Assembly: GCF_014127285.1 (NCBI RefSeq)
Contig: NZ_CP059901.1
Coordinates: 3,410,001-3,474,000 of the forward strand
Source of the DNA: Mumia sp. ZJ1417
GTDB taxonomy: Bacteria; Actinomycetota; Actinomycetes; Propionibacteriales; Nocardioidaceae
Length of the DNA: 64,000 bases
Direction: 5' to 3'
A model generated the notes under the pieces. That model did not search any database, had not been told where the DNA came from, and saw nothing but the letters and a program-made list of their open reading frames with translations. A program made the translations under genes and the position numbers. Of this stretch, positions 13,083 through 30,969 are shown piece after piece (within the stretch, counting starts at the first letter, position 1; each line of letters opens with the position of its first letter).

Positions 13083-16553
<3,471 letters not shown>

Positions 16554-16893
16554 GAGGGGTCCTTCCAGAAGGCTCGCAGTTCCCGGGTTGCGGCACCGAC
16601 CGAACCCATGCCAAATCACCCAGGTCAAGGGGTGAGTGGGCAGAGTGCAGGCAGCGCAAAGAATGAGTCTAGACGTCAACCCGGGCAGATTTCAACCCAG
16701 GGAGTCAAGCCTTCGCCGTCGATGATGAACGCATCTGGGGCTCAGGTCAAGCAGCCGGGCGGTTCGGACGGGGGTGTCGTGCCGGAACCTCCCGGGAACA
16801 CAGGGCGGGGAACGGGCGTTGCGGCGCCCGTGTCACCCTGGATGTGACATTCGTTACCCCGTGCCGACGGGGCGTGGCTACCGAGGAGGGATC
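16554..16893. promoter_or_regulatory. Divergent rpoB/sortase intergenic region
   Basis: This 340-base gap holds the rpoB leader (about 105 bases) and promoter, and the upstream region of the sortase gene. An inverted repeat TGTCAC-N7-GTGACA lies at 16831-16849, 45 bases before the sortase start, and might be an operator. No credible coding sequence is seen. The rpoB leader contains an imperfect TCACCC/GGGTGA repeat. Confidence 0.5.
16666..16695 (-). promoter_or_regulatory. Putative rpoB promoter
   Basis: TTGAAA (16690-16695) and TAGACT (16666-16671) on the minus strand are 18 bases apart, giving a start near 16659. Confidence 0.55.
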
Positions 16894-17607
16894 GTGCCGA
16901 CGCAGACCACTCCACCGCGCCGCGAGCGCCCCGAGCTCAAGCCCACACCCCGCCTGCGGCCGACCCGGATGCTCGCCACGCTGCTGACGCTGGTCCTCGT
17001 CGCGAGTGCCGGCTGGTTCGCCTGGAAGTACATCGGCACCAACATCGTCGCGAAGCAGCGTCAGGGCGAGATGGCCGTCGCCCTCGCGGACGGCTGGCGC
17101 GACAACCGTCAGGGTGACGCGACCGAGGACGACCTGGAGATCGGCGAGGCGATGGCCGTCCTCCGGATCCCACGGTTCGGCAAGGACTTCGAGGTACCGG
17201 TGGTCGAGGGCGTCGACGACTCCGCACTCACCTCCGGCGTCGGCCACTTCCCGGACACCCAGCGCCCTGGGCAGCTCGGCAACTTCGCCGTGGCGGGGCA
17301 CCGCATCACCAACGGACAGCCGTTCAAGGACTTCCCTGACCTGCGGGCCGGCGACACGGTCTATGTGGAGACCCGTACGCATGTCTACACGTACGAGCTG
17401 CGCGGCTCCGGGACGGACACGATCGTCGACTTCTCCGACATCTGGGTGATCGCCCCGGTCCCCGAGAAGGCCAAGGACAGGCCCGGAGGGCGCTCCAAGG
17501 CCAAGCCCCGCGAAGCCCTCCTCACCCTGACGACGTGCTCGGAGATCTTCCACACCGATAACCGCTCGGTCGTCTTCGGGGAGCTCGTCTCCGCCGAGCA
17601 CGTCTGA
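16894..17607 (+). CDS. Class E sortase
   Basis: Sortases covalently attach surface proteins to peptidoglycan cross-bridges. The GTG at 16894 is chosen for the GGAGG upstream; it gives 237 residues. A cytoplasmic, Pro/Arg-rich N-terminus precedes a membrane anchor (about residues 26-44), followed by the extracellular beta-barrel. The catalytic triad is visible as His in FAVAGHRITNG, Cys in LLTLTTCSEIF and Arg in HTDNRSVVFGE. The TLTTC form with this layout is typical of class E, the housekeeping sortase of many actinobacteria. A likely substrate ending in LPATG, a helix and a basic tail is encoded at 28411-29439. The gene converges on the Mce operon with a 2-base gap. Confidence 0.9.
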   Translation: MPTQTTPPRRERPELKPTPRLRPTRMLATLLTLVLVASAGWFAWKYIGTNIVAKQRQGEMAVALADGWRDNRQGDATEDDLEIGEAMAVLRIPRFGKDFEVPVVEGVDDSALTSGVGHFPDTQRPGQLGNFAVAGHRITNGQPFKDFPDLRAGDTVYVETRTHVYTYELRGSGTDTIVDFSDIWVIAPVPEKAKDRPGGRSKAKPREALLTLTTCSEIFHTDNRSVVFGELVSAEHV

Positions 17608-17609
17608 CG

Positions 17610-18293
17610 TCAGGTCGTCGTCAGCTCCGCGACCAGCCAGCGGCCGTCGACCTTCTCCATCCGCACGATCGCCGAGAGCGCGGCCGGTGAGCCTGCCTTG
17701 CCGGCGACCGTACGGTGCTGGTCGACGAAGGCGAGGAGACGCACGCTCGACGTCGAGCACTCCTGTCCGCACCCGAGCGGCGCCACGGCGCGTACGGAGG
17801 CCGTGACGTCGATCTTGCGTTGCTCGGCCGCCGAGGCGACCTGGGGCGCGAGCTGCTCGTACTCCGCCGCGAAGTCGTCGGTCATCAGCTCTGTCGCCGC
17901 GGCGAGGTCGTCGGCGACGCTCGCATACCCATAGCTGAGCATCGTGACGAGGGCGGTCGACGCCTGCTCTGTCGCCGCGTCCTCCGCGTCGATCTGCCGC
18001 TGGGCGTCGCCCTCCACCTGCCGGACGGAGACCACGGCGATGACGGCGAACGCCACCGCGGCCACGGCCGCCAGACCGAGCCCGCTGAGGACGAGACGCG
18101 CACGGCCCGACAACGTCGGGCGAGGCTCCTTGGAGGGCTTGGTCGGCCGAGGAGGCCTGGCGCTCTTGGCCTGGGGGCCGGGCTCGGCGGGCGGCGGAGC
18201 CGTGCTCTCGGCCGCATCTGCCGCCTCGGCCGTCTCGGACGTCTCGGACGATCGCCGCTTCTCTCCCGCGATCCGGGGTCGTCGGTTGCTCAC
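17610..18293 (-). CDS. Mce-associated membrane protein (second)
   Basis: This is a 227-residue protein. The start is fixed by a GTGA overlap with the preceding stop and by GAGGAGG upstream. It has a long basic and Pro-rich cytoplasmic N-terminus, one membrane helix (about residues 65-90) and an extracytoplasmic domain of the SnoaL/NTF2-like fold usually seen in Mce-associated proteins. Two Cys residues in LGCGQECS may form a disulphide. In mycobacteria such proteins stabilise or assist Mce lipid importers. It is the last gene of the operon. The role is inferred from position and architecture. Confidence 0.8.
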   Translation of the reverse strand: MSNRRPRIAGEKRRSSETSETAEAADAAESTAPPPAEPGPQAKSARPPRPTKPSKEPRPTLSGRARLVLSGLGLAAVAAVAFAVIAVVSVRQVEGDAQRQIDAEDAATEQASTALVTMLSYGYASVADDLAAATELMTDDFAAEYEQLAPQVASAAEQRKIDVTASVRAVAPLGCGQECSTSSVRLLAFVDQHRTVAGKAGSPAALSAIVRMEKVDGRWLVAELTTT

Positions 18294-18847
18294 GAGCCGT
18301 CCTCCTCGCCCTGCTCCGAAGCCTCGGACTCCACCGGGATGTTGGCGAAGCTGTCGACGAGCCATTCGTCGCCGTCGCGGACGAGCGCGATGCGCCAGCG
18401 CAGCCGGGGCCGGCCGACCTGCACGTCGGCGGGCTCGGTCGCGACGTCGATCGCCGCGAGCACCTCAGCACTGTCGTCGTCGAGGCTGTCGACGGCGACC
18501 TGCTTGACCGTGCCCTTGGAGACGATGCCCGCCTCCTCGAACTTCGAGAGGAGGTCCTTGGTCGAGGCCTCGAACTGCGTCGCGAGGTCGTCGGTGAGCA
18601 GCGGACGCACGCGCGCGATGTATGGGTCGAGGTCCTTGACGTCGTAGGTGTTCACGCTGGTCGCGAACTTCTCCGCGGCCGCGCGCACGTCCGCCTGCGT
18701 GGCGGTGTCGGCGTACGCCGGGATCTGAGGCCCTCGTACGAGCGCGAGCACGCCGACCGCCACACCGGCCACAGCAACGAGGGCGAGGACGAGAGCGAGC
18801 AGGCGCGTGCGGCTCAGCGCGCGACCGCCGGTCCGAGCAGCATCCAC
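18290..18847 (-). CDS. Mce-associated membrane protein (first)
   Basis: About 185 residues, with an N-terminal membrane helix (residues 12-35) and an extracytoplasmic domain resembling other Mce-associated proteins. The domain ends with a strand pattern containing WRIALVRDGDEWLVDSF. I prefer the GTG at 18847, which has GGAGA 7 bases upstream; a GTG at 18853 is also in frame. Either start lies inside the 3' end of the last mce gene, implying translational coupling. It probably acts with the transporter at the membrane or wall; no enzymatic motif is seen. Confidence 0.8.
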   Translation of the reverse strand: MDAARTGGRALSRTRLLALVLALVAVAGVAVGVLALVRGPQIPAYADTATQADVRAAAEKFATSVNTYDVKDLDPYIARVRPLLTDDLATQFEASTKDLLSKFEEAGIVSKGTVKQVAVDSLDDDSAEVLAAIDVATEPADVQVGRPRLRWRIALVRDGDEWLVDSFANIPVESEASEQGEEDGS

Positions 18848-20085
18848 TTCCACGTCTCCTTCCCGAGATCAGGTGCGTCCGGGATCGTCGCGCCCGTCGC
18901 TGACACCTGCTTCGTCGCCACATCGTACGTTCCGAGCGTGACGCCCCCGTCCGTCCCGGCGTCGGAGGCCGGTGCGACGGTCGAGCCACCGGCGGCCGAG
19001 GCACTCCGTGGCTGCGCCTCGAGGCATCGGCGTGCCCTGTCCCACGTCTCCGGCGTACGGTCGAACGGTGTCCGCTGCTTGGCGCCTGACGCGTATCCCT
19101 TGAGGCACGGCGCGTTGTCGGGCTGCAGCGTCAGGCTGAGTCGCGCCGCGTACTGGCCGGTGCGCGAGTCCTGGGCGATGATCGAGAAAGCGCTCTCGAC
19201 GCCGTACGGGGCGATCACGAGCACGCCGCGCACCCCGTCGAGGTGCGAGACGACCACCTTGTTGAGCGTGATGGCGTGGTCGAGCAGCGAGGCGAAGTCG
19301 TCGGCGTTCTCGGCGATGACGGACCGCAGCGTCGCCGCGGTCGGGGCTCCGACGTCGAGGACCGTGCGCAGGTCGGCGTCGGACGTCCGCATCGCGGTGC
19401 TGAGGTCGCGGAGGTTCGTGGCGAACTCCACGATGTCGTCCTGGGAGTCGACCTGAGTCTCCAGGACCTTGCGCGAGTCACGGATCAGCGCGGCCGTCAC
19501 CTCGTACTTCTGGTCGGCGGTCGTGATGAACGAGCTGGTCGTGTCGATCAGCGTACGAAGATCGCCGGCCGAGCCCTCGAAGGCGTCACCCAGCTCAGTG
19601 ATGACGGTGCTGAGGTCGTCGGCGTCGACCGAGGTGAGGAACGCGTTGACGTCGGTGAGCAGCGTGCGGGTGTCGATCGGCACCTGCGTGCGGTCGCGGG
19701 CGATGACGTCGTCGGCCTCGAGGAACGGGGCGGCGTCGGAGTCCGGCTGGAAGTCGAGATACTGCTCGCCCACGGCCGACTTGTTGGCGACGACGACCTT
19801 CGTGTCGGCCGGGATGTCGGGCGAGGAGTGGTCGATGAGCACCTCGACGTCGACGCCGTCGCGGGTCAGCCACATGTCCTTGACCCGTCCCACGCTGACG
19901 CCCCGGTAGGTGACGTCGGCCCCGGTGAAGATGCCTCCGGACTCGGCCATCTCGACGACCACCGAGTAGCCGCCCCCTCCGAACAGGCGGTCGACGCGGG
20001 CGTACTTCGCCCCGACGAACGAGACACCGACGAGGGTCAGCACGAGGAACATGACCAGCTGGATGCGCATCCGACGGGTGATCAC
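18814..20085 (-). CDS. MCE-family protein, MceF position
   Basis: This is the sixth Mce protein of the operon, at 423 residues. One N-terminal membrane helix is followed by the MCE/MlaD domain (about residues 38-115). The core includes FTGADVTYRGVSVGRV and the VGEQYLDFQP segment. After it comes a long, predominantly helical region that in characterised systems forms the hydrophobic tunnel. Its C-terminal tail is Ser/Thr/Ala-rich. The start overlaps the previous stop as ATGA. It is expected to form a heterohexamer with the other five Mce proteins to move lipids or sterols toward the YrbE permeases. Confidence 0.9.
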   Translation of the reverse strand: MITRRMRIQLVMFLVLTLVGVSFVGAKYARVDRLFGGGGYSVVVEMAESGGIFTGADVTYRGVSVGRVKDMWLTRDGVDVEVLIDHSSPDIPADTKVVVANKSAVGEQYLDFQPDSDAAPFLEADDVIARDRTQVPIDTRTLLTDVNAFLTSVDADDLSTVITELGDAFEGSAGDLRTLIDTTSSFITTADQKYEVTAALIRDSRKVLETQVDSQDDIVEFATNLRDLSTAMRTSDADLRTVLDVGAPTAATLRSVIAENADDFASLLDHAITLNKVVVSHLDGVRGVLVIAPYGVESAFSIIAQDSRTGQYAARLSLTLQPDNAPCLKGYASGAKQRTPFDRTPETWDRARRCLEAQPRSASAAGGSTVAPASDAGTDGGVTLGTYDVATKQVSATGATIPDAPDLGKETWKWMLLGPAVAR

Positions 20086-21188
20086 GGAGTCACCACGCTC
20101 TCTGCCATGACCGCGCCGACACCGTCTCCGCGCAGCGCCTCCTTGAGGGACTTCAGCTCAGCCTCGGACATCAGCCCGATCGTCTTGGTGAAGTCGGTCC
20201 TGAAGTCCAGCGACACGTTGGTGTAGTCCCCCATCTGGTAGGCCGCTGCCTCACCCGGGCCGTCCCCGAGCAGGGAGTCGGGGAAGGGGAACGTCGGGAG
20301 CACCTCGAGCGACGAGATCAGCGCGTCACCGGCGGAGGCGAGGTTGTCGAGCACCGGCTCGAGCGCGTCGAGGTCGGCGGCGACCGCGTCCTTGGCGCGG
20401 ACGATCACGTCGGTGCCGACGCTGCCGAGGTCGGTGAGCGCCTCGAGCATGCGGACGAGGTTGGCGCGCTGAGCGTTCACGGTGCGCAGTGCCTCGGGCA
20501 TATCGTCGAGGGCGCCTTCGATCGCCTTGCGCTGCGACCTCGTCGCCTTCGCGAGCTGGTCGACCTGCTCGATCGCCGTCACGATCTCGGCCCTGGACTC
20601 CTCGGCCGTCCCGACGAACTCGTCGAGGCGCCGCACCAGCGTGCGCATGTTGGCCTCACGGCCCGACATCGCGTTGTTGAGCTCGCGCGCGATGACCTGC
20701 ACCTTGTCGACCGCTCCCCCGTTGAGCACGAGGGAGAGCGCGCCGAGCACCTGCTCGACCTCGGGCGTGTGGCCGGTACGGGCGAGGGGGATCCGGTCGC
20801 CGTCCGACAGCTGCCCGGTCGACCCGGTCGCCGGCGGCGCCAGCGAGACGAACTTCTCGCCGAGGATGCTGGTCTGCCGGATGGACGCCATAGCGTTGTC
20901 GGGCAGCTCCACCGAGTCGTTGACCTCGAGCTCCACCTTGGCCTGCCAGCCGTCGAGCTCCACTCGGGTGACGCGTCCGACGGAGACGTCGTTGACCTTG
21001 ACGGCGCTCTGCGGCACCAGGTCCATCACGTCGTCGAACTCGACGACGACCGTGAACGGGGCGTCGCCGAGGTCGGCACCGCCAGGGAGCGGGAGGTCAC
21101 CGACGTTGCCGCTCCCGCACCCGGTCACGAGCGCGAGACCGGTGAGAGCGGCCGCCGCCGCGGTCCAGCGGTTCCTGGCTCGCGTCAT
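20082..21188 (-). CDS. MCE-family lipoprotein, MceE position
   Basis: This 368-residue protein has a lipoprotein signal ending in LVTGC, as is usual for the fifth protein of Mce operons (LprK-like). The MCE domain spans about residues 45-125, with QSAVKVNDVSVGRV and ILGEKFVSLAPP, followed by the helical extension. The start ATG at 21188 overlaps the upstream stop (ATGA), which rules out the longer reading frame. It should be lipid-anchored outside the membrane and contribute one subunit to the Mce ring. Confidence 0.92.
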   Translation of the reverse strand: MTRARNRWTAAAAALTGLALVTGCGSGNVGDLPLPGGADLGDAPFTVVVEFDDVMDLVPQSAVKVNDVSVGRVTRVELDGWQAKVELEVNDSVELPDNAMASIRQTSILGEKFVSLAPPATGSTGQLSDGDRIPLARTGHTPEVEQVLGALSLVLNGGAVDKVQVIARELNNAMSGREANMRTLVRRLDEFVGTAEESRAEIVTAIEQVDQLAKATRSQRKAIEGALDDMPEALRTVNAQRANLVRMLEALTDLGSVGTDVIVRAKDAVAADLDALEPVLDNLASAGDALISSLEVLPTFPFPDSLLGDGPGEAAAYQMGDYTNVSLDFRTDFTKTIGLMSEAELKSLKEALRGDGVGAVMAESVVTP

Positions 21189-22360
21189 GACGCCACTCCC
21201 ATCAGTGCGGCGAGCCCGTCGGTCGACGCCGTCGAGGAACCCTTGGCCTGCTTCTCCATCCACGAGACGACCTCGCCGAGCGCATAGCAGGCCTCGCGGT
21301 ACTTCGGGTTCTGGTTGGCCGCGAGACCGCAGTACGCCGAGACGTACGCCGCATCGGTGAGCGTACGGAACCGGCCGTCGCGCTTGCCCTTGATGGTGGC
21401 GCGGGTGTCGATGGCTCCCGTCGTGGGGTTGTACGCGGTGGCGAGGTTGGCGAGCGCATGCGGGCCCTTGTCAAGGATCCGCGCGAGGTTCTTGCGCTCC
21501 TTCGCCAGCGACTCCGTCACGTCGGCGAGCCCGTCGACGTTCTTGCGCAGGCTCGTCCGGTTCTCGGCGACATAGCTCTGCACCGAACCCAGGGCACCCG
21601 CGAGCTCGCGCAGCGCGGCCTGAAGGTCGTCGCTCTCTCCGGCGAGCACGTCCGAGACGGCCGCCAGACTGCTGTTGAACGTACGGACGGAGGCGTCGTT
21701 CTGCTCCAGCGCCTCGACGAAGGTCGCGATCTTCTCCATCGACGAGAACAGCTCGTCCTTTGACCCGTCGACGGTCGTCGTCAGCTTCGCGAGGGCGTCG
21801 ATGCTGCGCCTGATCTCGACGCCCTTGCCGTCGAGGTTCTCCGCGCTCGTCGCCAGCAGGTCACCGAGCGCGCCGTTCGCGTTGGCGCCGTCCGGGCCGA
21901 GCGCGGTCGCGACCCGATCGAGGGCCTCGAACGTCTCGTCGAGCTCGGTGGGGGTCGCCGAGCGAGTCTGGTCGAGGTGCGTGCCGTCGGCGAGCTTCGC
22001 GCCACCGGAGTAGGCGGGCGTGAGCTGCACGAAGCGGTCGCCGACCACCGAGGGCGACACGATCACGGCAGACACGTCGGCGGGCACGGCGTACTCGGCG
22101 TCCCAGGAGAGCCGGACACGGACCTTCGTACCGCGCGGGGTGATCGTGTCGACGGTGCCGACGTCGACCCCGAGGATGCGGACCTTCGAGCCTTCGTAGA
22201 GCGACACCGTACGGTCGAAGTCGACGGTCAGCGTGTGCTTCTGCGAGCGCGGGATCAGCACCACGACCAGCGCGGCGACGAGGCCGAGGACGAGGAGGCC
22301 GACCACGACCTCGACCGCGCGGCGCGAGGCCCTCGGGCCACGCTCGACAGTGGCCGTCAC
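21185..22360 (-). CDS. MCE-family protein, MceD position
   Basis: This is a 391-residue Mce subunit. The GTG at 22360 is chosen because it overlaps the preceding stop (GTGA) and has GGAGG upstream. It has one membrane helix near residues 17-40, an MCE domain (about 42-120, containing YEGSKVRILGVDVGTV and VVGDRFVQLTPAY), then a long helical region with heptad-like patterning. Two Cys in the C-terminal part (AAYVSAYCG and REACYALG) may pair. It is part of the lipid-import ring; substrate is unknown. Confidence 0.9.
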   Translation of the reverse strand: MTATVERGPRASRRAVEVVVGLLVLGLVAALVVVLIPRSQKHTLTVDFDRTVSLYEGSKVRILGVDVGTVDTITPRGTKVRVRLSWDAEYAVPADVSAVIVSPSVVGDRFVQLTPAYSGGAKLADGTHLDQTRSATPTELDETFEALDRVATALGPDGANANGALGDLLATSAENLDGKGVEIRRSIDALAKLTTTVDGSKDELFSSMEKIATFVEALEQNDASVRTFNSSLAAVSDVLAGESDDLQAALRELAGALGSVQSYVAENRTSLRKNVDGLADVTESLAKERKNLARILDKGPHALANLATAYNPTTGAIDTRATIKGKRDGRFRTLTDAAYVSAYCGLAANQNPKYREACYALGEVVSWMEKQAKGSSTASTDGLAALMGVAS

Positions 22361-23340
22361 AGTCCCTCCTCCAGTCCGAGGATGCTCAGCAGGTTGTAGA
22401 CGAAGCCCTCGAGCCACGGACCGTTGCCGCTGTTGCTGGCGACCATCGCGTAGTAGGCGGGGAGCTGCTCCATCGCCGCGCTGATGTTCTTCTCGTTGCG
22501 CTGCAGCACCTTGACGACGCCGGCCAGCCGGTCGAGCGCGGGCTTGAGGTCGTCGCGCGTGTCGGCGACGAGCTTCTCGATCTCGTCGGACATGCGGGTG
22601 ACGCCCACGAGGACATCGTGGATCGCTTCGCGCCGGGCCGTGAGCGCGTCGAAGAGCACACCGCCGTCCTCGAACAGGGACACGACCTCGGTGTTGCGGT
22701 CGGCGAGCACGCCGGAGATGCCGTCGATGTTCTTGAGGAGCGTCTTGATCTCCGCGTCGCGGGCCGCGAGGTTCTCGGAGAGCTCGGTGACCCCCTTGAC
22801 CGCCTTCTGGAACTCCTCGGGCGTCTTGGCAGTGACCTCGCCGAAGGTCTTCATCGCGTGCGCGAGCTGGTCGGTGTCGATCTCCTGCGTCGTCTCGCTG
22901 AGCCCGGAGAACGCCTGCACGATGTCGTACGGCGGTGTCGTCCGCGAGGCGGGGATCAGCGCCCCTTCCTCCAGCGTGCCGGACCCAGCGGACTCGAGGC
23001 TGACGTACATCGCCCCGAGCAGGGTCTTGATGCGCACCGACGCGCCCGTCTCCTTGCCGAGGCGCTCGCGCTCGTCCTTCACACGGAAGACGACGCGCAC
23101 CTTGTCGCCCCGGAGCTCGAGGTCGTCGACCTTGCCGACGAGGACGCCGGACATCCGGACGTCGTCGCCCTTCTTGAGCCCGCCGACCTCGGTGAACTCA
23201 GCGGCGTACGTCGGGCCGCTGCCGACCAGCGGCAGCGAGCCGGCCTGGCTGGCCAGGACGAGGACGAGGGCGATGAGCAGCACGCCGACCGCGCCGACGG
23301 CGACGGGGTTGCGCTCGCGGAACGGCTTCATCCTGCGCAT
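22357..23340 (-). CDS. MCE-family protein, MceC position
   Basis: This is a 327-residue Mce subunit, the shortest of the six. I start at the ATG at 23340, which has GGAG 7 bases upstream and overlaps the preceding gene by 13 bases; an in-frame ATG at 23331 is the alternative. An N-terminal membrane helix precedes the MCE domain, with KKGDDVRMSGVLVGKV and LLGAMYVSLESAG, and an alpha-helical tail. It lacks the Pro/Ser-rich C-terminal extension of MceA. Confidence 0.9.
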   Translation of the reverse strand: MRRMKPFRERNPVAVGAVGVLLIALVLVLASQAGSLPLVGSGPTYAAEFTEVGGLKKGDDVRMSGVLVGKVDDLELRGDKVRVVFRVKDERERLGKETGASVRIKTLLGAMYVSLESAGSGTLEEGALIPASRTTPPYDIVQAFSGLSETTQEIDTDQLAHAMKTFGEVTAKTPEEFQKAVKGVTELSENLAARDAEIKTLLKNIDGISGVLADRNTEVVSLFEDGGVLFDALTARREAIHDVLVGVTRMSDEIEKLVADTRDDLKPALDRLAGVVKVLQRNEKNISAAMEQLPAYYAMVASNSGNGPWLEGFVYNLLSILGLEEGL

Positions 23341-24434
23341 CGGCTCACTCCTGACCCTGTGACGGTGACGCGCTTCGTCGTCTTGAACGGTCGGGCCTTC
23401 TCCCACCCGGGCACGCCGCTGAGCGACGGCAGCCTGCCGTCGATGCCGACGTCGCACACATAGAAGTTGAAGAACGAGCCGTACTCCGTCGTACGCCCGA
23501 TCCGGTCGATCTTGATCGGCAGGATCTTGAGGGTGCTGTCGAGCGCCTTGCGTGCCTTCTTGGTGCCGATCGCGTCGGTGAGATCGCGCAGGTGCGCGAT
23601 GTCGGACGTCAGGTCGGGCCGGATCTCGGTGAGCAGACCGGCGGTCTCGGTGCTCAGCGCGGCGATGTCGTCGAGCGACCCGGTGAGCACGCCGCGGTCG
23701 TCCTTGAGACCCGACACGAGCTGCTGCAGCGTCGAGATCGTCGACGACAGCTCGGTGTCGCGCGCGTTGAACGACGTGAGGACCGCGGTGAGGTTGGAGA
23801 TGACCGAGCCGATCAGGTCGTCGCGGTCCGCGAGCGTCTGCGTGAGCGAGGCGGTGTGCCCGAGCAGCGACTCGACCGTGCCGCTCTCCCCCTGGAAGAC
23901 CTGGATCAGCTCGTACGCGAGCTGGTTGGTGTCGTCCGGCGACAGCGCCTGGAAGAGCGGCTTGAACCCCGCGAACAGGACGGTCAGGTCGAGGGCGGGC
24001 TGGGTCCGCGCGAGCGGGATGGTCGAGCCCGGCTGGAGGCGCGCTGACGAACCCTCCGGTCCCTCGGACAACGAGAGGTAGCGCTGCCCGATCATGTTGC
24101 GGTAGCGCAGCGACGCCAGCGTGCTGTGGGTCAGCGTCACCCCCTCGTCGACGGTGAACGTCACCTCGGCGGTGGAGTCGGAGTCGACCCGCACCTCCGA
24201 GACGTTGCCGACCCGGACGCCGGCGATGCGGACGTCGTCACCCTTGACGAGGCTCGTCACGTCAGCGAAGACCGCCTTGTAGGTCTTCGTCGACAGGAAC
24301 GAGACGTTGCCGATGATCACCGCGAGCATCGCCGTGAGGATGCCGGTCACCACCAGGAAGAGGAGCAGTCGCCCGAGCGCGCCCGCCGTACGGCGGTCGA
24401 GCCTGGGGTCGCGCCTGCGTCGACGCTTGGTCAT
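23328..24434 (-). CDS. MCE-family protein, MceB position
   Basis: This is a 368-residue Mce subunit starting at ATG 24434, which overlaps the MceA stop (ATGA). A strongly basic N-terminus (TKRRRRRDPRLDRR) and a membrane helix precede the MCE domain (about residues 50-125, with VKGDDVRIAGVRVGNV and MIGQRYLSLSEG). The C-terminal half is helical and carries FNFYVCDVGIDGRLP, a segment common in MceB proteins. It belongs to the same coupled string of genes and probably the same hexamer. Confidence 0.92.
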   Translation of the reverse strand: MTKRRRRRDPRLDRRTAGALGRLLLFLVVTGILTAMLAVIIGNVSFLSTKTYKAVFADVTSLVKGDDVRIAGVRVGNVSEVRVDSDSTAEVTFTVDEGVTLTHSTLASLRYRNMIGQRYLSLSEGPEGSSARLQPGSTIPLARTQPALDLTVLFAGFKPLFQALSPDDTNQLAYELIQVFQGESGTVESLLGHTASLTQTLADRDDLIGSVISNLTAVLTSFNARDTELSSTISTLQQLVSGLKDDRGVLTGSLDDIAALSTETAGLLTEIRPDLTSDIAHLRDLTDAIGTKKARKALDSTLKILPIKIDRIGRTTEYGSFFNFYVCDVGIDGRLPSLSGVPGWEKARPFKTTKRVTVTGSGVSRCAG

Positions 24435-25747
24435 CCGATCGTCACCTCCGCTCCGCGAAGCACGGGGCCGGCCAGGGCCTGCGCCACCGACGGCACCTCG
24501 TCGGGCTCGACACCGAGGGCCCCGGCCATCAGCGCCTCGATCTGTGCACGCTCGGACGGCGAGCCGGCCGGGGTCGACCCGCTGGGCGCGACCAGCGGCC
24601 GGTCCTTGCCGAGCGGGCCCCCGATGCCGAGCTGGCGCAGAAGCGCGTTGCTCATGCCGGGCGCGGGAGTCGTCGCGTCGTACGACGTCTTGGGGAGGGT
24701 CGCGCAGGTCGGGTCGAGCGCACTGCTGCCCCCGCTGGCCGGCGGGAGGCTCGCGGCATCACCCTTGTCGTACGCCCGCGGCGAGCGCGCCGCGAACTCC
24801 ACCATGACGTGGGCACGGTTGTCCCGGAACGCCGAGTCGATGCGCGGCATGAGCCGGTCGACGCCCTTGAGGACGCAGCCGATCGTCGGCGCGTAGTCGG
24901 CGAGCAGCTCCAGCGTCGGCCGCGACTGCTTGGACAAGGTGATGAAGTCCTCGCCGGTCTTGTCGAAGAACGCGTCCGCAGTCGTCGCGAACGCGGCCGT
25001 CTCGGTGAAGAGCGCCTGCAGCTGGGCCTTGCGGCCGGTCAGCGTGTTGCCGGTGACCACGGCGTTGCGCAGCGTCTCGCCGATCTCCGGCATCACGTCG
25101 GCGTACGTCTGCGCGGTCTCGCCGAGCAGCGTGATGTCCTCGACGATGCGGGGCGCCAGCGGGGTGATCTTCTGGAGGTAGCCCTCGAGCGTCTCGAGGC
25201 TCTCGCCCAGCGCCTCGCCCTGTCCGTCGAGCGCCTCGGACAGCGCCGTGAGGGTGTACGAGAGGTCGACAGGGTTCAGCGCGGTGAGGATCGGGTCGAG
25301 ATCGATGAGGAGGTTCTCGACGTCGGTCGGCAGGTCGGCCTGTGTGAGGACGTCACCGGCCTCGATCGGCGTCCCCGCAGATCCGGCGACCGGCTGCAGG
25401 TCGACGAACTTCTCGCCGAAGAGCGTCTTGGGCACGATCAGGGCTTCCACGTCCGAGGGGATGAGCCTCTGGTAGTCGGGGTCGATCCGCAGGTGGATCG
25501 TCGCGCGGCCCGCGTCGGAGGTGATCTCCTGGACCCGGCCGACGATCACGCCGCGCAGCTTCACGTCGGAGTTGCGGTTGAGCTGGAGACCGGCGCTCTC
25601 GCTGCGGATCGTGACCGGGAGGTCTCCGGAGAACTTCTTGGTGAACACCGCGTAGGTCAGGTAGACCGCGGAGAGCATCAGCACGAGCATCAGCACGCCG
25701 AGCGTGCGGACGGTGCCCGTCTTGTCGAGGGTGGACGTGCGTGCCAT
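24431..25747 (-). CDS. MCE-family protein, MceA position
   Basis: This is the first Mce protein of the operon, at 438 residues. The start ATG at 25747 shares its A with the TGA of the second YrbE gene, which rules out the longer open frame. It has one membrane helix (residues 12-32), an MCE domain (about 38-115, including NRNSDVKLRGVIVGRV and LFGEKFVDLQPV), the helical barrel region, and a Pro/Ser/Gly-rich C-terminal tail of about 90 residues. It is expected to be a subunit of the lipid/sterol importer. Confidence 0.92.
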   Translation of the reverse strand: MARTSTLDKTGTVRTLGVLMLVLMLSAVYLTYAVFTKKFSGDLPVTIRSESAGLQLNRNSDVKLRGVIVGRVQEITSDAGRATIHLRIDPDYQRLIPSDVEALIVPKTLFGEKFVDLQPVAGSAGTPIEAGDVLTQADLPTDVENLLIDLDPILTALNPVDLSYTLTALSEALDGQGEALGESLETLEGYLQKITPLAPRIVEDITLLGETAQTYADVMPEIGETLRNAVVTGNTLTGRKAQLQALFTETAAFATTADAFFDKTGEDFITLSKQSRPTLELLADYAPTIGCVLKGVDRLMPRIDSAFRDNRAHVMVEFAARSPRAYDKGDAASLPPASGGSSALDPTCATLPKTSYDATTPAPGMSNALLRQLGIGGPLGKDRPLVAPSGSTPAGSPSERAQIEALMAGALGVEPDEVPSVAQALAGPVLRGAEVTIG

Positions 25748-26574
25748 CAGCCGGCCAACCTCACCGTCGTCGTCGTGCCCCAGATCGCCATCGACATCAG
25801 CAGGTCGACCACGTTGATCATGACGATCGACGTCCGCACCGCACGGCCGACGGCGACGCCGACGCCGACGGGGCCGCCCGAGGCGAAGTAGCCGTAGTAG
25901 CAGTGGATGAGGATGACGACGACGGCGAAGACCATCACCTTCACGAACGACCACAGCACGTCCTCCGGCGGGAGGAACAGCGTGAAGTAGTGGTCGTACG
26001 TGCCGGTGCTCTGGCCGAAGACCCAGGTGACCGTCAGCCGCGTCGCGAAGTACGAGGCCAGCAGGCCGACGACGTACAGGGGGATGATCGCGGCGAGTCC
26101 GGCGATCACACGGGTCGTCACGAGGTATGGCAGCGACGGGATCGCCATCACCTCGAGGGCGTCGACCTCCTCGGAGATGCGCATCGCGCCCAGCTGCGCG
26201 GTGAAGCCGCAGCCGACCGTCGCCGCGAGGGCGATGCCTGCGACGAGCGGCGCGATCTCGCGGGTGTTGAAGTACGCCGAGAAGAAGCCGGCGAACGCGC
26301 TGGTGTCCAGCTGCTCGAGCGCGGTGAAGCCCTGCAGGCCGACCTCGGTGCCGGTGAAGAACGACATCGCCGTGATCACGCCGACGGTGCCGCCGATGAC
26401 GGCGAGCGCCCCTTGACCGAAGGTCACTTCCGCGAGCAGGCGCAAGACCTCACGCGGATAGTGGACAAGCGTGCGCGGGACCCAGGCCAGGACCCGCAGG
26501 TAGAACGCGAGGTGGCGTCCGAGCGCGTCGATCCCGCCGAGCGGACGGCGAGAGAGCTCCCTCACGTCGGCCAC
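25747..26574 (-). CDS. YrbE/MlaE-family permease B
   Basis: This is the second of two MlaE-type integral membrane permeases, 275 residues with five to six hydrophobic segments. The conserved central loop reads GAMRISEEVDALEVMAIPSLPYLV, which contacts the ABC ATPase. The GTG start at 26574 lies one base after the previous stop. With YrbEA it should form the transmembrane part of the Mce ABC transporter. The short ending TTTVRLAG is typical. Confidence 0.93.
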   Translation of the reverse strand: MADVRELSRRPLGGIDALGRHLAFYLRVLAWVPRTLVHYPREVLRLLAEVTFGQGALAVIGGTVGVITAMSFFTGTEVGLQGFTALEQLDTSAFAGFFSAYFNTREIAPLVAGIALAATVGCGFTAQLGAMRISEEVDALEVMAIPSLPYLVTTRVIAGLAAIIPLYVVGLLASYFATRLTVTWVFGQSTGTYDHYFTLFLPPEDVLWSFVKVMVFAVVVILIHCYYGYFASGGPVGVGVAVGRAVRTSIVMINVVDLLMSMAIWGTTTTVRLAG

Positions 26575-26575
26575 G

Positions 26576-27355
26576 TCACAACGCCTTCGCCGGGACGAGC
26601 TGGATGTAGAGCGCGCTCATCACGAAGTTGGCCAGGAACAGCAGCAGGAAAGTGATGACGACCGACTCGTTGACCGCCTGACCGACGCCGCGCGGACCAC
26701 CGTCGGCGTGCATGCCCTTGTACGAGGCCACGATCGCGGCGATGAAGCCGAACACCAGCGCCTTGGCCATGCCCTGCCAGAGGTCCGGCAGCTGGGCCAG
26801 GGCGGTGAAAGAGGCCAGGTAGGCGCCCGGCGTGCCGCCCTGGAGGATGACGTTGAAGAAGTAGCCGCCGAGCACGCCGACGACGCTGACCAGGCCGTTG
26901 AGGAAGACCGCGACGAGCATGCACGCCAGCACCCGCGGGACGACGAGGCGCTGGATCGGGTCGATGCCCAGCACCATCATGGCGTCGAGCTCCTCGCGGA
27001 TCTTGCGCGCGCCGAGGTCAGCGGCGATCGCCGAGCCGCCGGCCCCGGCGACGAGCAGCGCCGTCGCGATCGGACCCGCCTCACGGACGACCGCGAGCAC
27101 GGCCGCCGAACCCGTGAAGGACTGCGCGCCGAACTGCTGGATCAGGCTGCCCGCCTGCAGGGCGATGACCGCTCCGAACGGGATCGCGACCAGCGCGGTC
27201 GGGATGATCGTCACCGACGCGATGAACCACGCCTGCTGGATGAACTCGCGCAGCTGGAAGGGTCGCCGGAACACGCCCACGACGACGTCCGCGCCGAAGG
27301 CGAACAGCCTGCCGAAGATCGCGAGAGGCGTCGTGAGGACGGTGACCGCACTCAC
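26576..27355 (-). CDS. YrbE/MlaE-family permease A
   Basis: This is the first MlaE-type permease, 259 residues. The GTG at 27355 overlaps the ATPase stop (GTGA), excluding the longer frame. Conserved features are QLREFIQQAWFIAS, AREAGP-like VREAGPIATALLVAGAGG and the coupling-loop segment KIREELDAMMVLGIDPI. It pairs with YrbEB and the MceG-like ATPase to energise lipid uptake. Confidence 0.93.
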   Translation of the reverse strand: MSAVTVLTTPLAIFGRLFAFGADVVVGVFRRPFQLREFIQQAWFIASVTIIPTALVAIPFGAVIALQAGSLIQQFGAQSFTGSAAVLAVVREAGPIATALLVAGAGGSAIAADLGARKIREELDAMMVLGIDPIQRLVVPRVLACMLVAVFLNGLVSVVGVLGGYFFNVILQGGTPGAYLASFTALAQLPDLWQGMAKALVFGFIAAIVASYKGMHADGGPRGVGQAVNESVVITFLLLFLANFVMSALYIQLVPAKAL

Positions 27356-28341
27356 GCAGCACCCCCGGACGAGACCGGGTCGTGGACGCGCAGCGGGTGG
27401 GGCGACAGCGGATCGTCCAGGAAGGAGCCGGGAGGAGGGGTCACACCGTTGGCGGCACACCACGCGCCCGGCGGCGCCTGCGTCGGGCGCGGGCGCCCGT
27501 CGGTCGGCAGCAGCTGGAGCGGGATCGGCGGCAGCGCGGGCAGGGTGCTGTGGTCCTCCAGCGCCAGCTCGTCGGCGTCCTTCTCTTCGCTCATGCCGAT
27601 CGGGCCGACCGTCTGCGCGTTGAGGAACTGCCGGACGGCAGGCTCCTCGCTCGACAGCAGCATCTCGCGGGGCCCGAACATCGCCAGGTGGCGGTGGAAG
27701 AGCAACCCGATGTTGTCCGGGACCGTCCGCGCGGTGTTGATGTCGTGCGTGACGATGAGGAAGGTCGCCTCGATCTGGGCGTTGAGGTCGACGATCAGTT
27801 GGTTGATGAAAGCCGTACGCACCGGGTCGAGGCCGGAGTCGGGCTCGTCGAAGAGCACGATCTCCGGCTCCAGCACGAGGGCGCGGGCAAGTCCTGCGCG
27901 CTTGCGCATGCCGCCGGAGATCTCTGCGGGCAGCTTGCCCTCGGCACCGACGAGACCGACCATCGTCATCTTCTCCATGACGATCTCGCGGATCTCGGTC
28001 TCGGACTTGCGGGTGTGCTCGCGCAGCGGGAAGGCGACGTTGTCGAACAGCGTCATGGAGCCGAACATCGCGCCGTCCTGGAAGAGGACCCCGAACAGCT
28101 TGCGGATCTCGTACAGATCACGCTCGCTGCATGTCGCGATGTCGGTGCCCTCGATGAAGACGTGCCCCTCGTCGGGCTTCAGCAGGCCGATGAGGGCCTT
28201 GAGGAACACGGACTTTCCGGTGCCGGACGGTCCGAGCATGACGCTGATCTCCCCTGCGGGCAGGGTGAGCGACACGTCACGCCAGATCGTCTGCTTGCCG
28301 AAGGACTTCGTCAGACCTTCGACGCGTACCTCGACTCCCAT
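27352..28341 (-). CDS. Mce transporter ATP-binding protein (MceG/Mkl-like)
   Basis: This is the ABC ATPase of the Mce importer, 329 residues. Walker A is GPSGTGKS at residues 37-44, the signature is ISGGMRKRAGLARAL, Walker B is EIVLFDEPDSGLDP and the H-loop is LIVTHD. A C-terminal extension of about 80 residues, rich in Pro and Leu, follows the nucleotide-binding domain, as in MceG. In mycobacteria the single MceG (mkl) gene also lies in the rplL-rpoB interval but apart from any mce operon; here it heads a complete one. The gene begins 69 bases after the surface-protein gene. Confidence 0.95.
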   Translation of the reverse strand: MGVEVRVEGLTKSFGKQTIWRDVSLTLPAGEISVMLGPSGTGKSVFLKALIGLLKPDEGHVFIEGTDIATCSERDLYEIRKLFGVLFQDGAMFGSMTLFDNVAFPLREHTRKSETEIREIVMEKMTMVGLVGAEGKLPAEISGGMRKRAGLARALVLEPEIVLFDEPDSGLDPVRTAFINQLIVDLNAQIEATFLIVTHDINTARTVPDNIGLLFHRHLAMFGPREMLLSSEEPAVRQFLNAQTVGPIGMSEEKDADELALEDHSTLPALPPIPLQLLPTDGRPRPTQAPPGAWCAANGVTPPPGSFLDDPLSPHPLRVHDPVSSGGAA

Positions 28342-28410
28342 GTGCGGGACTCCTTCGGGGGGACGAGCACCTCGGCCAGCGGGGTGCCACGGAAGGGCGT
28401 GGTGACCGCG

Positions 28411-29439
28411 TCAGGCGGTCTTGGCCCGGCGACGTGTCCGGACGGCGAGCGCGATGCGTGCGGCGGCTACGAGGCCGAGCAGCCCCACGAGCCCGACGCC
28501 GACCGGAGAACCGGTCGCCGGCAGCGAGGTCGTCGTGTACGGCGCGACGCCCCCGTCGTCGTCATCGTCGTCGTCATCATCGGAACCACCGTTGCCCCCC
28601 GGCGAGGTGGAGTCGGTGTTCTTGGGCGGGTCGATCACCGGCGGATCCTCACCGCCGCCGCCGCCACCCCCGTTGCCGTCGCCGTCCCCTCCGCCGGGGG
28701 AACCTCCGACGGTGGGCAGCGGGCACTCCGACTCCTCGCACCCGTCGCCGACAGGGATGGTGCCGATCACGCGCGCGGCGCGGGTGTCGAGGTTGCGGAC
28801 GCAGTTGAGCTCGGTCTCGGCGATGGCACCCAGCACCGGCGGGTCGAGCTTTGCCTGGATCTTGAACGTCTTCGGCATCTGGACGTAGATCAGGCCACCG
28901 GTGACACCGTCGGGCAGCTCAGGGACGGTGACCGCGTCGACAGTGCCCTTGGCAGGGATGAGGAGCGAGCCCGAAGCAGGCACCGGGACCATAGGAGAGC
29001 TGAGGCCGCGGACCTGCGGCTCGAGGGTGGCGGCGACATCGCCACCGGGCACCACGCCCTGCAGGAGCACGGTGGAGGTCGCACCGCCGCCGACCTTGGT
29101 CACCAGCATGATGTCGCGAATCCGTGTGACCAACTTCGCCGGCAGGATGAGGTCGAGCTCGGCCGGAGTCTCAGCGATCGCGTCGCCCGCCACCACAGTG
29201 TCGGGCAGCGAGGTCCGCGCGTTCACGAGGAACTGCTGCGGACCGCCCAGCGAGGTGTTGATGATCTCGTTGTCCGACTCGCAGGTGTAGCCGACCTGGT
29301 TGAGCGAGACAGACTGCGCGGCACCGGCGACAGGCGCTAGCCCGACCTGCATGCCTCCCACGACCAGTCCCGCGGCGGCCATCAGACCTGCACCTCGATG
29401 CCATCCGACCTGACGACGTGCGACAGCGCTCACGCGCAT
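28411..29439 (-). CDS. LPATG-type cell-wall-anchored protein, Mce operon leader
   Basis: This 342-residue exported protein has a signal peptide cleaved after about residue 40 (APVAGA) and a globular domain of about 190 residues with two to four Cys. It looks like the DUF6801-type domain, by memory only. A Gly/Asp/Pro-rich linker (with a run of nine Asp near 287-295) leads to a sorting signal: LPATG at 306-310, a hydrophobic helix, and the basic tail RTRRRAKTA. It should be attached to peptidoglycan by a sortase such as the one at 16894. It is the first gene of the Mce operon, with GGGAGGGAG before its ATG. Function is unknown; an envelope partner of the lipid importer is a reasonable inference. 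Confidence 0.85.
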   Translation of the reverse strand: MRVSAVARRQVGWHRGAGLMAAAGLVVGGMQVGLAPVAGAAQSVSLNQVGYTCESDNEIINTSLGGPQQFLVNARTSLPDTVVAGDAIAETPAELDLILPAKLVTRIRDIMLVTKVGGGATSTVLLQGVVPGGDVAATLEPQVRGLSSPMVPVPASGSLLIPAKGTVDAVTVPELPDGVTGGLIYVQMPKTFKIQAKLDPPVLGAIAETELNCVRNLDTRAARVIGTIPVGDGCEESECPLPTVGGSPGGGDGDGNGGGGGGGEDPPVIDPPKNTDSTSPGGNGGSDDDDDDDDDGGVAPYTTTSLPATGSPVGVGLVGLLGLVAAARIALAVRTRRRAKTA

Positions 29440-29511
29440 GCGGTTCTCCCTCCCAAGCGAACCTCAGCGTCCGGAAGCGCAGCAGCGTGCTACTCCCAGG
29501 TAACAAACGTG

Positions 29512-29541
29512 ACTGTAACCCACATTTTCACTGTGACACAA
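29512..29541 (-). promoter_or_regulatory. Putative promoter of the Mce operon
   Basis: On the minus strand TTGTGT (29536-29541) and TACAGT (29512-29517) are 18 bases apart, about 66 bases before the surface-protein start. Around it GTAAC occurs twice (29500-29504 and 29515-29519) as a direct repeat with a GTGAC between, possibly an operator. Confidence 0.4.
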
Positions 29542-29645
29542 CCCACAGAAGGTCCCAAACGGGTCACAGCCGCCTCGATGCCAGGTGACCCTCATCACAG
29601 CGCATTCGCGGCGCCGTCACTGTACAGCCAGGCCCAGGAGAAAAG

Positions 29646-29685
29646 ACAGACGGGCACCCCTCCCGAAGGAGGGGTGCCCGTCTGT
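29646..29685 (-). terminator. rplJL terminator with U-tract
   Basis: A perfect 18-bp stem with a 4-base loop sits 25 bases past the rplL stop and is followed on the minus strand by CTTTTC. This is the most canonical intrinsic terminator in the window, and it separates the ribosomal genes from the Mce operon. Confidence 0.95.
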
Positions 29686-29710
29686 GCAGTGCGTCAGAGC
29701 GCGGAGTGCA

Positions 29711-30100
29711 TCACTTGAGGGTGATGGTGGCGCCGGCGGCCTCGAGGGCCTCCTTGGCCTTGTCCGCGGCCTCCTTGTTGACGCCCTCGAGGATCGCCTT
29801 GGGGGCGCCCTCGACGAGGTCCTTGGCCTCCTTCAGGCCGAGGCTCGTCAGAGCGCGCACCTCCTTGATGACCTGGATCTTCTTGTCGCCGGCCGACTCG
29901 AGGACGACGTCGAACTCGTCCTTCTCCTCGACAGCGGCGTCAGCCGCGCCGCCACCAGCGGCGGGAGCGGCGGCAACCGCGACCGGAGCGGCGGCGGTGA
30001 CGTCGAAGGTGTCCTCGAACTGCTTGACGAACTCGCTGAGCTCCAGGAGGGTCATCTCCTTGAAAGCGTCGAGCAGGTCCTCGGTGCTGAGCTTCGCCAT
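29711..30100 (-). CDS. rplL: 50S ribosomal protein L7/L12
   Basis: L7/L12 forms the ribosomal stalk that recruits translation factors. It has 129 residues: an N-terminal dimerisation domain (about 1-33), an Ala/Pro/Gly-rich hinge (about 38-57) and the globular C-terminal domain with [20 protein letters not shown]. It follows rplJ by 56 bases and is closed by the terminator at 29646-29685. Confidence 0.98.
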
Positions 30101-30156
30101 GTTGGCGTCCTTCCTATCTGGGGACCCCGAGGGGGGGTCGGATACGTGATCGGGCC

Positions 30157-30741
30157 CTAGCCCTCGGAGCCCTCGGCCGCAGCCGGGGCTTCTTCGGTCT
30201 CGGCGGGAGCCGAGGTTGCGGGAGTCTCCTGCTCGACCTTGGCCTGCAGGGCACCCACGGCACGTGCTGCCTGAGCAAGCGGTGCCTGGAACAGAGCGGC
30301 GGCCTTCGAGAGGTTCGCCTTCATGCCGCCCGCGAGCTTGGCGAGGAGGACCTCGCGCGACTCGAGGTCAGCAAGCTTCGTGATCTCGGCAGCATCGAGC
30401 GCCTTCCCCTCGAGGAAGCCACCCTTGATGACGAGCTTGTCGTTCGCCTTGGCGAAGTCACGCAGACCCTTGGCGACCTCGACCGGATCGCCCTTGATGA
30501 AGGCGATGGCGGTCGGGCCGTTGAGGAGGTCGTCGACGCCGTCGACGCCGGCCTCGCGGGCCGCGATCTTGGTCAGCGTGTTCTTGGCCACGGCGTAGTT
30601 GACGTTCTCACCGAGCGAGCGGCGCAGGTCCTGCAGCTGCTTCACGGTGAGACCGCGGTACTCGGTCAGCACAGCGCCGTTGGAGCTGCGGAACTCGTCC
30701 GTCAGCTCGGCAACCGCTGCGGCCTTGTCCGGTCGCGCCAT
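30157..30741 (-). CDS. rplJ: 50S ribosomal protein L10
   Basis: L10 anchors the L7/L12 stalk dimers to 23S rRNA. The ATG at 30741 with AGGAG upstream gives 194 residues beginning [17 protein letters not shown]. The N-terminal RNA-binding domain and the C-terminal helix that binds L12 are followed by an Ala/Glu-rich tail. The longer open frame upstream covers the regulatory leader and is not coding. Confidence 0.97.
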
Positions 30742-30969
30742 GGTTCTCCTTCGTGTCGTACCCGCCGCACGGCGAGCACCTGGTACGTACGAAGGCCACC
30801 GGCGCAACAGGCCCGGGAACGACGAACGCCCCGGCGCAGGAGCACGGGGCGCGACACACGGGAGAGTGCGTGAACTCGGTGAACCTGCGCGGGCCGCCCG
30901 CTGTGTGCGGGACCTTCGATCCGAGGCGCTCCCTGGGGAGTGCCGCGGACGACCGGCGGTCTTCGGCAT
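30742..30969 (-). promoter_or_regulatory. rplJL leader, L10-leader-like
   Basis: The roughly 228-base leader between promoter and rplJ contains CCGAAGACCGCCGG close to its 5' end and further GC-rich stems before the ribosome-binding site. Autoregulatory L10 leaders occupy this place in many bacteria, where L10(L12)4 binds the mRNA to repress translation. The assignment rests on position and the AAGACCGCCGG core; a covariance search was not possible. Confidence 0.55.

Follow-up and report, generated by a model that had tools for sequence, protein, structure and literature searches.

A Mce importer operon of Mumia bracketed by genes for a putatively sorted DUF6801 protein and a class E sortase

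The Isd haem-uptake locus of Staphylococcus aureus encodes a sortase (srtB), sorted NEAT proteins, and the IsdEF importer. In this work, we analyzed a stretch of 64,000 nucleotides from Mumia sp. ZJ1417 (hereafter the window; G000:C1:3410001-3474000, genome size 4.19 Mb, family Nocardioidaceae), in which the operon of a Mce-type lipid importer begins with the gene of a sorted DUF6801 protein and is faced at its far end by the gene of a class E sortase, SrtE. Importer, DUF6801 protein, and sortase are together called the cassette below. Similarly to Isd, a sortase, a sorted surface protein, and an ATP-binding cassette (ABC) importer lie in one conserved locus, which is a likeness of layout and not of homology. 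Compared with Isd, the sortase is of a different class, DUF6801 takes the place of NEAT, and the importer is of the lipid (Mce) type.

The znu zinc loci of Corynebacterium diphtheriae likewise encode an actinobacterial sorted protein with an ABC importer, namely the sortase-anchored ZnuG (LPDTG), which is implicated in a zinc-related role (PMC12445094). Unlike the cassette, znu is a zinc system with an HxD/HxH zinc motif in ZnuG, and the C. diphtheriae sortases described in that paper belong to pilus loci or to housekeeping (SrtF) and not to znu (PMC12445094). The mycobacterial Mce1 and Mce4 systems share with the operon the YrbE pair, MceA-F, a MceG-type ATPase, and Mce-associated proteins, Mce being of the MlaFEDB superfamily, but they have no described sorted partner. 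SrtE1 of Streptomyces coelicolor and SrtE of Actinoplanes missouriensis fall in the same NF033747 subfamily as the cassette SrtE and have LAXTG or LPxTG substrates, but their roles concern chaplins or morphogenesis proteins. The text of the 2007 survey of mce operons in Actinomycetales contains no mention of sortase. In the literature searched, which left most subscription papers outside its scope, we found no paper linking a Mce importer with a sortase substrate and none mentioning DUF6801. An importer of the Mce type that has its own presumed sorted partner and sortase appears to be new.

We propose, with a probability of about 0.6, that the Mce importer, the DUF6801 protein, and SrtE work together as a self-contained cassette. 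This reading is based on the gene order, the intact sorting signal, the intact active site of the sortase, and the joint retention of both genes with the importer. The features that carry it are, in window coordinates:

16894-17607, plus strand: srtE, class E sortase of 237 residues, facing the 3' end of the operon in convergent orientation (NF033747, 192 bits; PF04203, 98.8 bits; orthologues in the same place in 14 other cassettes)
28411-29439, minus strand: sorted DUF6801 protein of 342 residues, first gene of the operon (PF20611, E 1.7e-27; orthologue alignments)
28789-29289, minus strand: DUF6801 domain, residues 51-217 (PF20611; AlphaFold2 model of residues 41-242)
28510-28524, minus strand: LPATG sorting motif, residues 306-310 (read in the sequence; orthologue alignments)

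The preliminary description of this DNA had suggested following the LPATG protein, the class E sortase, and the mce genes through related genomes, and the outcome places both proteins with the Mce operon. In profile searches, a tailed DUF6801 orthologue (at least 370 bits) was present in 6 of 6 Mumia, 7 of 49 Aeromicrobium, and 3 of 216 genomes of a third genus (g7), which is probably Nocardioides. The Mumia orthologues were located via DUF6801 and ATPase searches. Below 370 bits there was a gap in the scores, down to about 70 bits, where paralogues were found. No orthologue was detected outside the three genera in samples of 395 genomes of the class and 396 of the phylum. A contig scan with a single DUF6801 protein gave no match, and a scan with the alignment gave five named loci.

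The orthologue was the first gene of a Mce operon at all 16 loci, and the same sortase converged on the far end at all 15 loci where that end is intact. The sixteenth locus, from a metagenome-assembled genome of Aeromicrobium choanae (L108, taken as G370), ends inside the operon. Neither the orthologue nor the sortase was found at 7 complete control Mce operons lying at rplL-rpoB in other Nocardioidaceae, nor at the second Mce operon of Mumia itself (L188). There were nine control loci, of which L095 and L097 end at contig edges and were excluded from the sortase count. Chance adjacency was rejected, as 15 complete loci, located at different chromosomal sites, share the arrangement.

The DUF6801 family is much broader than this orthologue. 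It matched in 37 of 150 genomes of the bacterial family and seven times in the Mumia genome; the six matches besides the LPATG protein belong to secreted proteins, of which several have repeats, and a sorting tail is absent from all six. As most family members are unlinked to mce, DUF6801 in general was rejected as a Mce partner. According to the preliminary description, frequent occurrence of the protein family without mce genes would speak against a partnership. This holds for DUF6801 at large, but not for the tailed orthologue, which never occurred outside a Mce operon.

The DUF6801 protein of the window consists of a signal peptide, the DUF6801 domain, a Gly/Asp-rich linker, LPATG, a hydrophobic segment, and an RTRRR tail. 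Its match to PF20611 (96.9 bits against a gathering threshold of 26) makes it a member of DUF6801. The signal peptide, LPxTG-like motif, hydrophobic segment, and basic tail of a sortase substrate were read directly in the sequence. The earlier statements that the first gene encodes an exported protein with LPATG, helix, and basic tail, and that a class E sortase gene faces the other end of the operon (NF033747 and PF04203; convergent at 16894-17607), were thus both correct. The sorting motif was LPATG in 13 of 13 Mumia and Aeromicrobium orthologues (12 aligned, plus L108) and LADTG in 3 of 3 from the third genus. The orthologues are only 42-85% identical to the window protein, yet the LP/LAxTG motif is invariant, and the linker varies freely. 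An arginine midway along the hydrophobic sorting tail, R328 (window 28456-28458), was invariant in 15 of 15 aligned orthologues; the other sorted proteins seen had no Arg in this segment. The dedicated sortase may recognize R328.

AlphaFold2 gave a useless model for the full-length protein alone, with a predicted local distance difference test (pLDDT) score of 37. For residues 41-242 with five orthologues the mean pLDDT was 92.7, and the model was mostly beta with three or four short helices. Foldseek with this model detected no solved structure at E below 0.001 and no viral structure, and sequence searches of solved structures showed no relative. In VIA-align, 3lso was the sole standout (Z 10.7, 3.1 Å over 153 residues, 12% identity), while the lower rows may reflect merely a common arrangement. 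3lso is a putative membrane-anchored protein of C. diphtheriae, described as containing immunoglobulin (Ig)-like domains (PMC10034466). The predicted fold fits a surface-exposed binding or structural domain.

SrtE scored 192 bits on NF033747 against a cut-off of 160, and the class C, D, and F models stayed below their cut-offs. Its catalytic His136, Cys215, and Arg224 were invariant across 12 SrtE orthologues. Tyr229 of SrtE1 has been proposed as the basis for the Ala preference in LAXTG (PMC5148588). The corresponding position was Phe in 15 of 15 cassette sortases, with LPATG or LADTG partners alike, and varied widely among related class E enzymes. Phe at this position was rejected as a predictor of LPATG over LAXTG because it occurs in the LADTG lineage as well, and in several unrelated class E enzymes; Tyr229 is a proposed specificity trait and not a criterion for the class E family. 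Streptomyces SrtE1 cleaves both LAETG and LPETG peptides in vitro (PMC5148588), and Actinoplanes SrtE appears to use LPVTG (PMC13251363). LPATG is therefore acceptable as a class E substrate.

The same breadth of SrtE1, which cuts LAETG and LPETG (PMC5148588), would also suit anchoring of the DUF6801 protein by another, housekeeping sortase, the linked SrtE serving other substrates, and the Mumia genome holds one sortase fragment besides four sortase genes, among which is that of a second intact class E enzyme. However, every complete cassette had the linked SrtE, and none of the control Mce operons did. In addition, the Mumia and Aeromicrobium cassette sortases (>490 bits) stood apart from all other class E sortases of the order sample, where the next best, at about 278 bits, were the cassette sortases of the third genus. 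We regard anchoring by another sortase as improbable.

Several other sortase genes were seen in Mumia and elsewhere. The second intact class E sortase of Mumia has a WxL-interacting-protein-type gene (PF06030) nearby, which belongs to a different surface system (L187:1512-6486). A class E sortase remnant was found beside pyrE-type genes (G000:C1:3770514-3770633; L186, L005), and two other Mumia genomes carry intact copies of its gene (L183, L184). At L185:8507-13709, a class E sortase adjoins a 1474-residue DUF11-repeat protein ending in LPNTG, which is another pair of a sortase and a single substrate.

The chromosomal position of the cassette differs between the genera. In Mumia it lies at rplL-rpoB. 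In six Aeromicrobium genomes, rplL was followed by rpoB with no mce match between them, and the cassette was located elsewhere, behind an operon for an energy-coupling factor (ECF)-type transporter. The cassette of the third genus has yet another neighbourhood and no ATPase gene in the operon; these genomes carry two or three ATPase homologues elsewhere. As the sites in Mumia, Aeromicrobium, and the third genus are different, both bracketing genes travel with the operon. In a tree of eight concatenated proteins, rooted on the second mce operon of Mumia, all cassette operons formed one clade (support 1.0) next to the rplL-rpoB type. The cassette therefore formed once, and both bracketing genes were retained through moves and divergence. 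Independent assembly in each genus is unsupported by this tree.

A single origin would also suit a sortase and DUF6801 protein that form a surface-display pair, for example, of an adhesin, fixed beside the Mce operon by descent and without a role in lipid import. The other Mumia DUF6801 proteins (secreted, several with repeats, no adjoining Mce genes) and the closest solved fold, the Ig-like 3lso, point in the same direction. A pair working only with itself, however, needs no transporter in between, and here the substrate gene is first in the operon, the sortase lies about 11 kb off, past the opposite end, and both ends of the operon were kept at different chromosomal sites. Such neighbourhood by descent only is unlikely in our judgment.

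Further DUF6801 proteins were observed near the cassette. In the third genus, a second, tail-less one lies directly behind the cassette sortase (L173:17703-18971, L174:17602-18600, L175:1188-2456), and that of L173 carries Big_3_5 Ig-like repeats. In Aeromicrobium, a gene upstream of the cassette (L176:6525-11969, L177:2247-7126, L178:2116-6724) encodes a two-domain DUF6801 protein whose tail is LAATG-like, with LAATG in L176 and L178 and LASTG in L177. It adjoins the ECF-type transporter, with its PF09819 component and double ATPase, giving a second neighbourhood of a tailed DUF6801 protein and an importer.

To our knowledge, the thick wall of the Mumia type has no mycolic outer membrane. In the self-contained cassette, SrtE would cleave the Thr-Gly bond of LPATG (LADTG in one lineage) and would join the DUF6801 protein to a peptidoglycan precursor. 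The beta domain would then stand in the outer wall on a flexible linker of about 60-90 residues, where it would either bind lipid and deliver it to the Mce needle at its outer (portal) end, or hold the needle in the thick wall. The portal, needle, and ring of Mce1 reach about 225 Å from the membrane (PMC9882608). Because the protein-sortase pair stays with the operon in three genera at different sites, a Mce importer with a wall-fixed outer part is suggested.

Among the two forms of this mechanism, lipid binding by the DUF6801 domain is a tentative proposal, which we would not favor at even odds. The fuller version is equally tentative: a wall-anchored DUF6801 receptor with its own sortase may collect lipid outside the monoderm cell and pass it to the portal of the Mce needle, as a lipid counterpart of Isd. 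In the other form, the anchored protein would fix or protect the needle in the peptidoglycan, for example, by capping or centring the portal, and would bind no lipid. The long disordered-looking linker with a single beta domain agrees with such positioning, which also matches the "tethering" option of the preliminary description, but most Mce operons of close relatives manage without a DUF6801 partner. We hold positioning without lipid binding to be rather unlikely. We consider it very improbable that the covalent link made by SrtE is between the DUF6801 protein and the Mce complex rather than the wall.

Several points weigh against the self-contained cassette. Anchoring, lipid binding, and Mce contact are inferred, and the predicted DUF6801 fold is similar to Ig-like beta domains, with no sign of a lipid pocket. 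The Mce operons of close relatives, including most Aeromicrobium, do without a sorted partner, which makes the partner accessory. Owing to the single origin, 15 of 15 loci are not 15 independent events, and the joint retention could come partly from tight linkage. Finally, with four sortase genes and a fragment in the genome, the second intact class E enzyme among them, other sortases could anchor the DUF6801 protein.

The Mce operon of the window is complete, lies on the minus strand, and is wedged between rplL (29711-30100) and rpoB (13083-16679). It encodes an ATPase, two YrbE/MlaE permeases, MceA-F, and two Mce-associated-type proteins, and so contains what defines an actinobacterial Mce importer operon (a YrbE pair, six Mce proteins, and a MceG ATPase, either dedicated or shared). 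A Mce operon wedged between rplJL and rpoBC (window 13083-30969) recurs in several other Nocardioidaceae genera. The remaining features, all on the minus strand, are as follows:

17610-18365, minus strand: assocB, Mce-associated-type membrane protein, last gene of the operon (open reading frame; position kept in related Mce operons; no Pfam match)
18290-18853, minus strand: assocA, Mce-associated-type membrane protein (weak Rv0361-type NCBIfam match, under the model cut-off)
18814-20085, minus strand: MceF-type protein (TIGR00996 and MlaD)
20082-21263, minus strand: MceE-type protein, lipoprotein-like, true start probably internal (TIGR00996 and MlaD)
21185-22417, minus strand: MceD-type protein (TIGR00996 and MlaD)
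22357-23457, minus strand: MceC-type protein (TIGR00996 and MlaD)
23328-24434, minus strand: MceB-type protein (MlaD domain in the genome search; orthologues in syntenic operons)
24431-25954, minus strand: MceA-type protein, true start probably near 25750 (MlaD domain in the genome search; orthologues in syntenic operons)
25747-26574, minus strand: second YrbE permease (MlaE PF02405, 212.6 bits)
26576-27463, minus strand: first YrbE permease, true start probably near 27360 (open reading frame; 77-94% identical orthologues in syntenic operons)
27352-28341, minus strand: MceG-type ATPase (ABC_tran; best NCBIfam match is the MlaF model)
29500-29550, minus strand: promoter-like block ahead of the LPATG gene, TTGTGT-18-TACAGT (consensus match; shared by six Mumia genomes)
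29646-29685, minus strand: terminator hairpin after rplL, separating the operon from rplJL (18-pair stem, then CTTTTCT)

The transcription unit was read by consensus and conservation arguments. srtE is convergent with the last gene of the operon, with 2 bases separating both stop codons, and is not cotranscribed with it. Transcription of rplJL would be ended by the strong 18-pair hairpin followed by a T-rich stretch (29685-29646), which is retained, with altered stem sequences, across six Mumia genomes. The block of about 60 bases upstream of the LPATG gene, with its promoter-like TTGTGT-18-TACAGT core, was conserved in the same number of Mumia genomes, and the srtE-rpoB intergenic region showed conserved promoter-like boxes pointing at rpoB. 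Because of the rplL terminator, the conserved promoter-like block, and the separate boxes for rpoB, a separate transcript plausibly begins with the LPATG gene and would continue through mce.

A wall-fixed partner that is genetically linked to the importer and has its own sortase would offer a handle on how lipids get to Mce importers from the exterior, above all in actinobacteria that lack a mycolic outer membrane, since its lipid binding and its contact with the Mce portal could be tested. If the cassette works as proposed, this would be the first function for a DUF6801 member.

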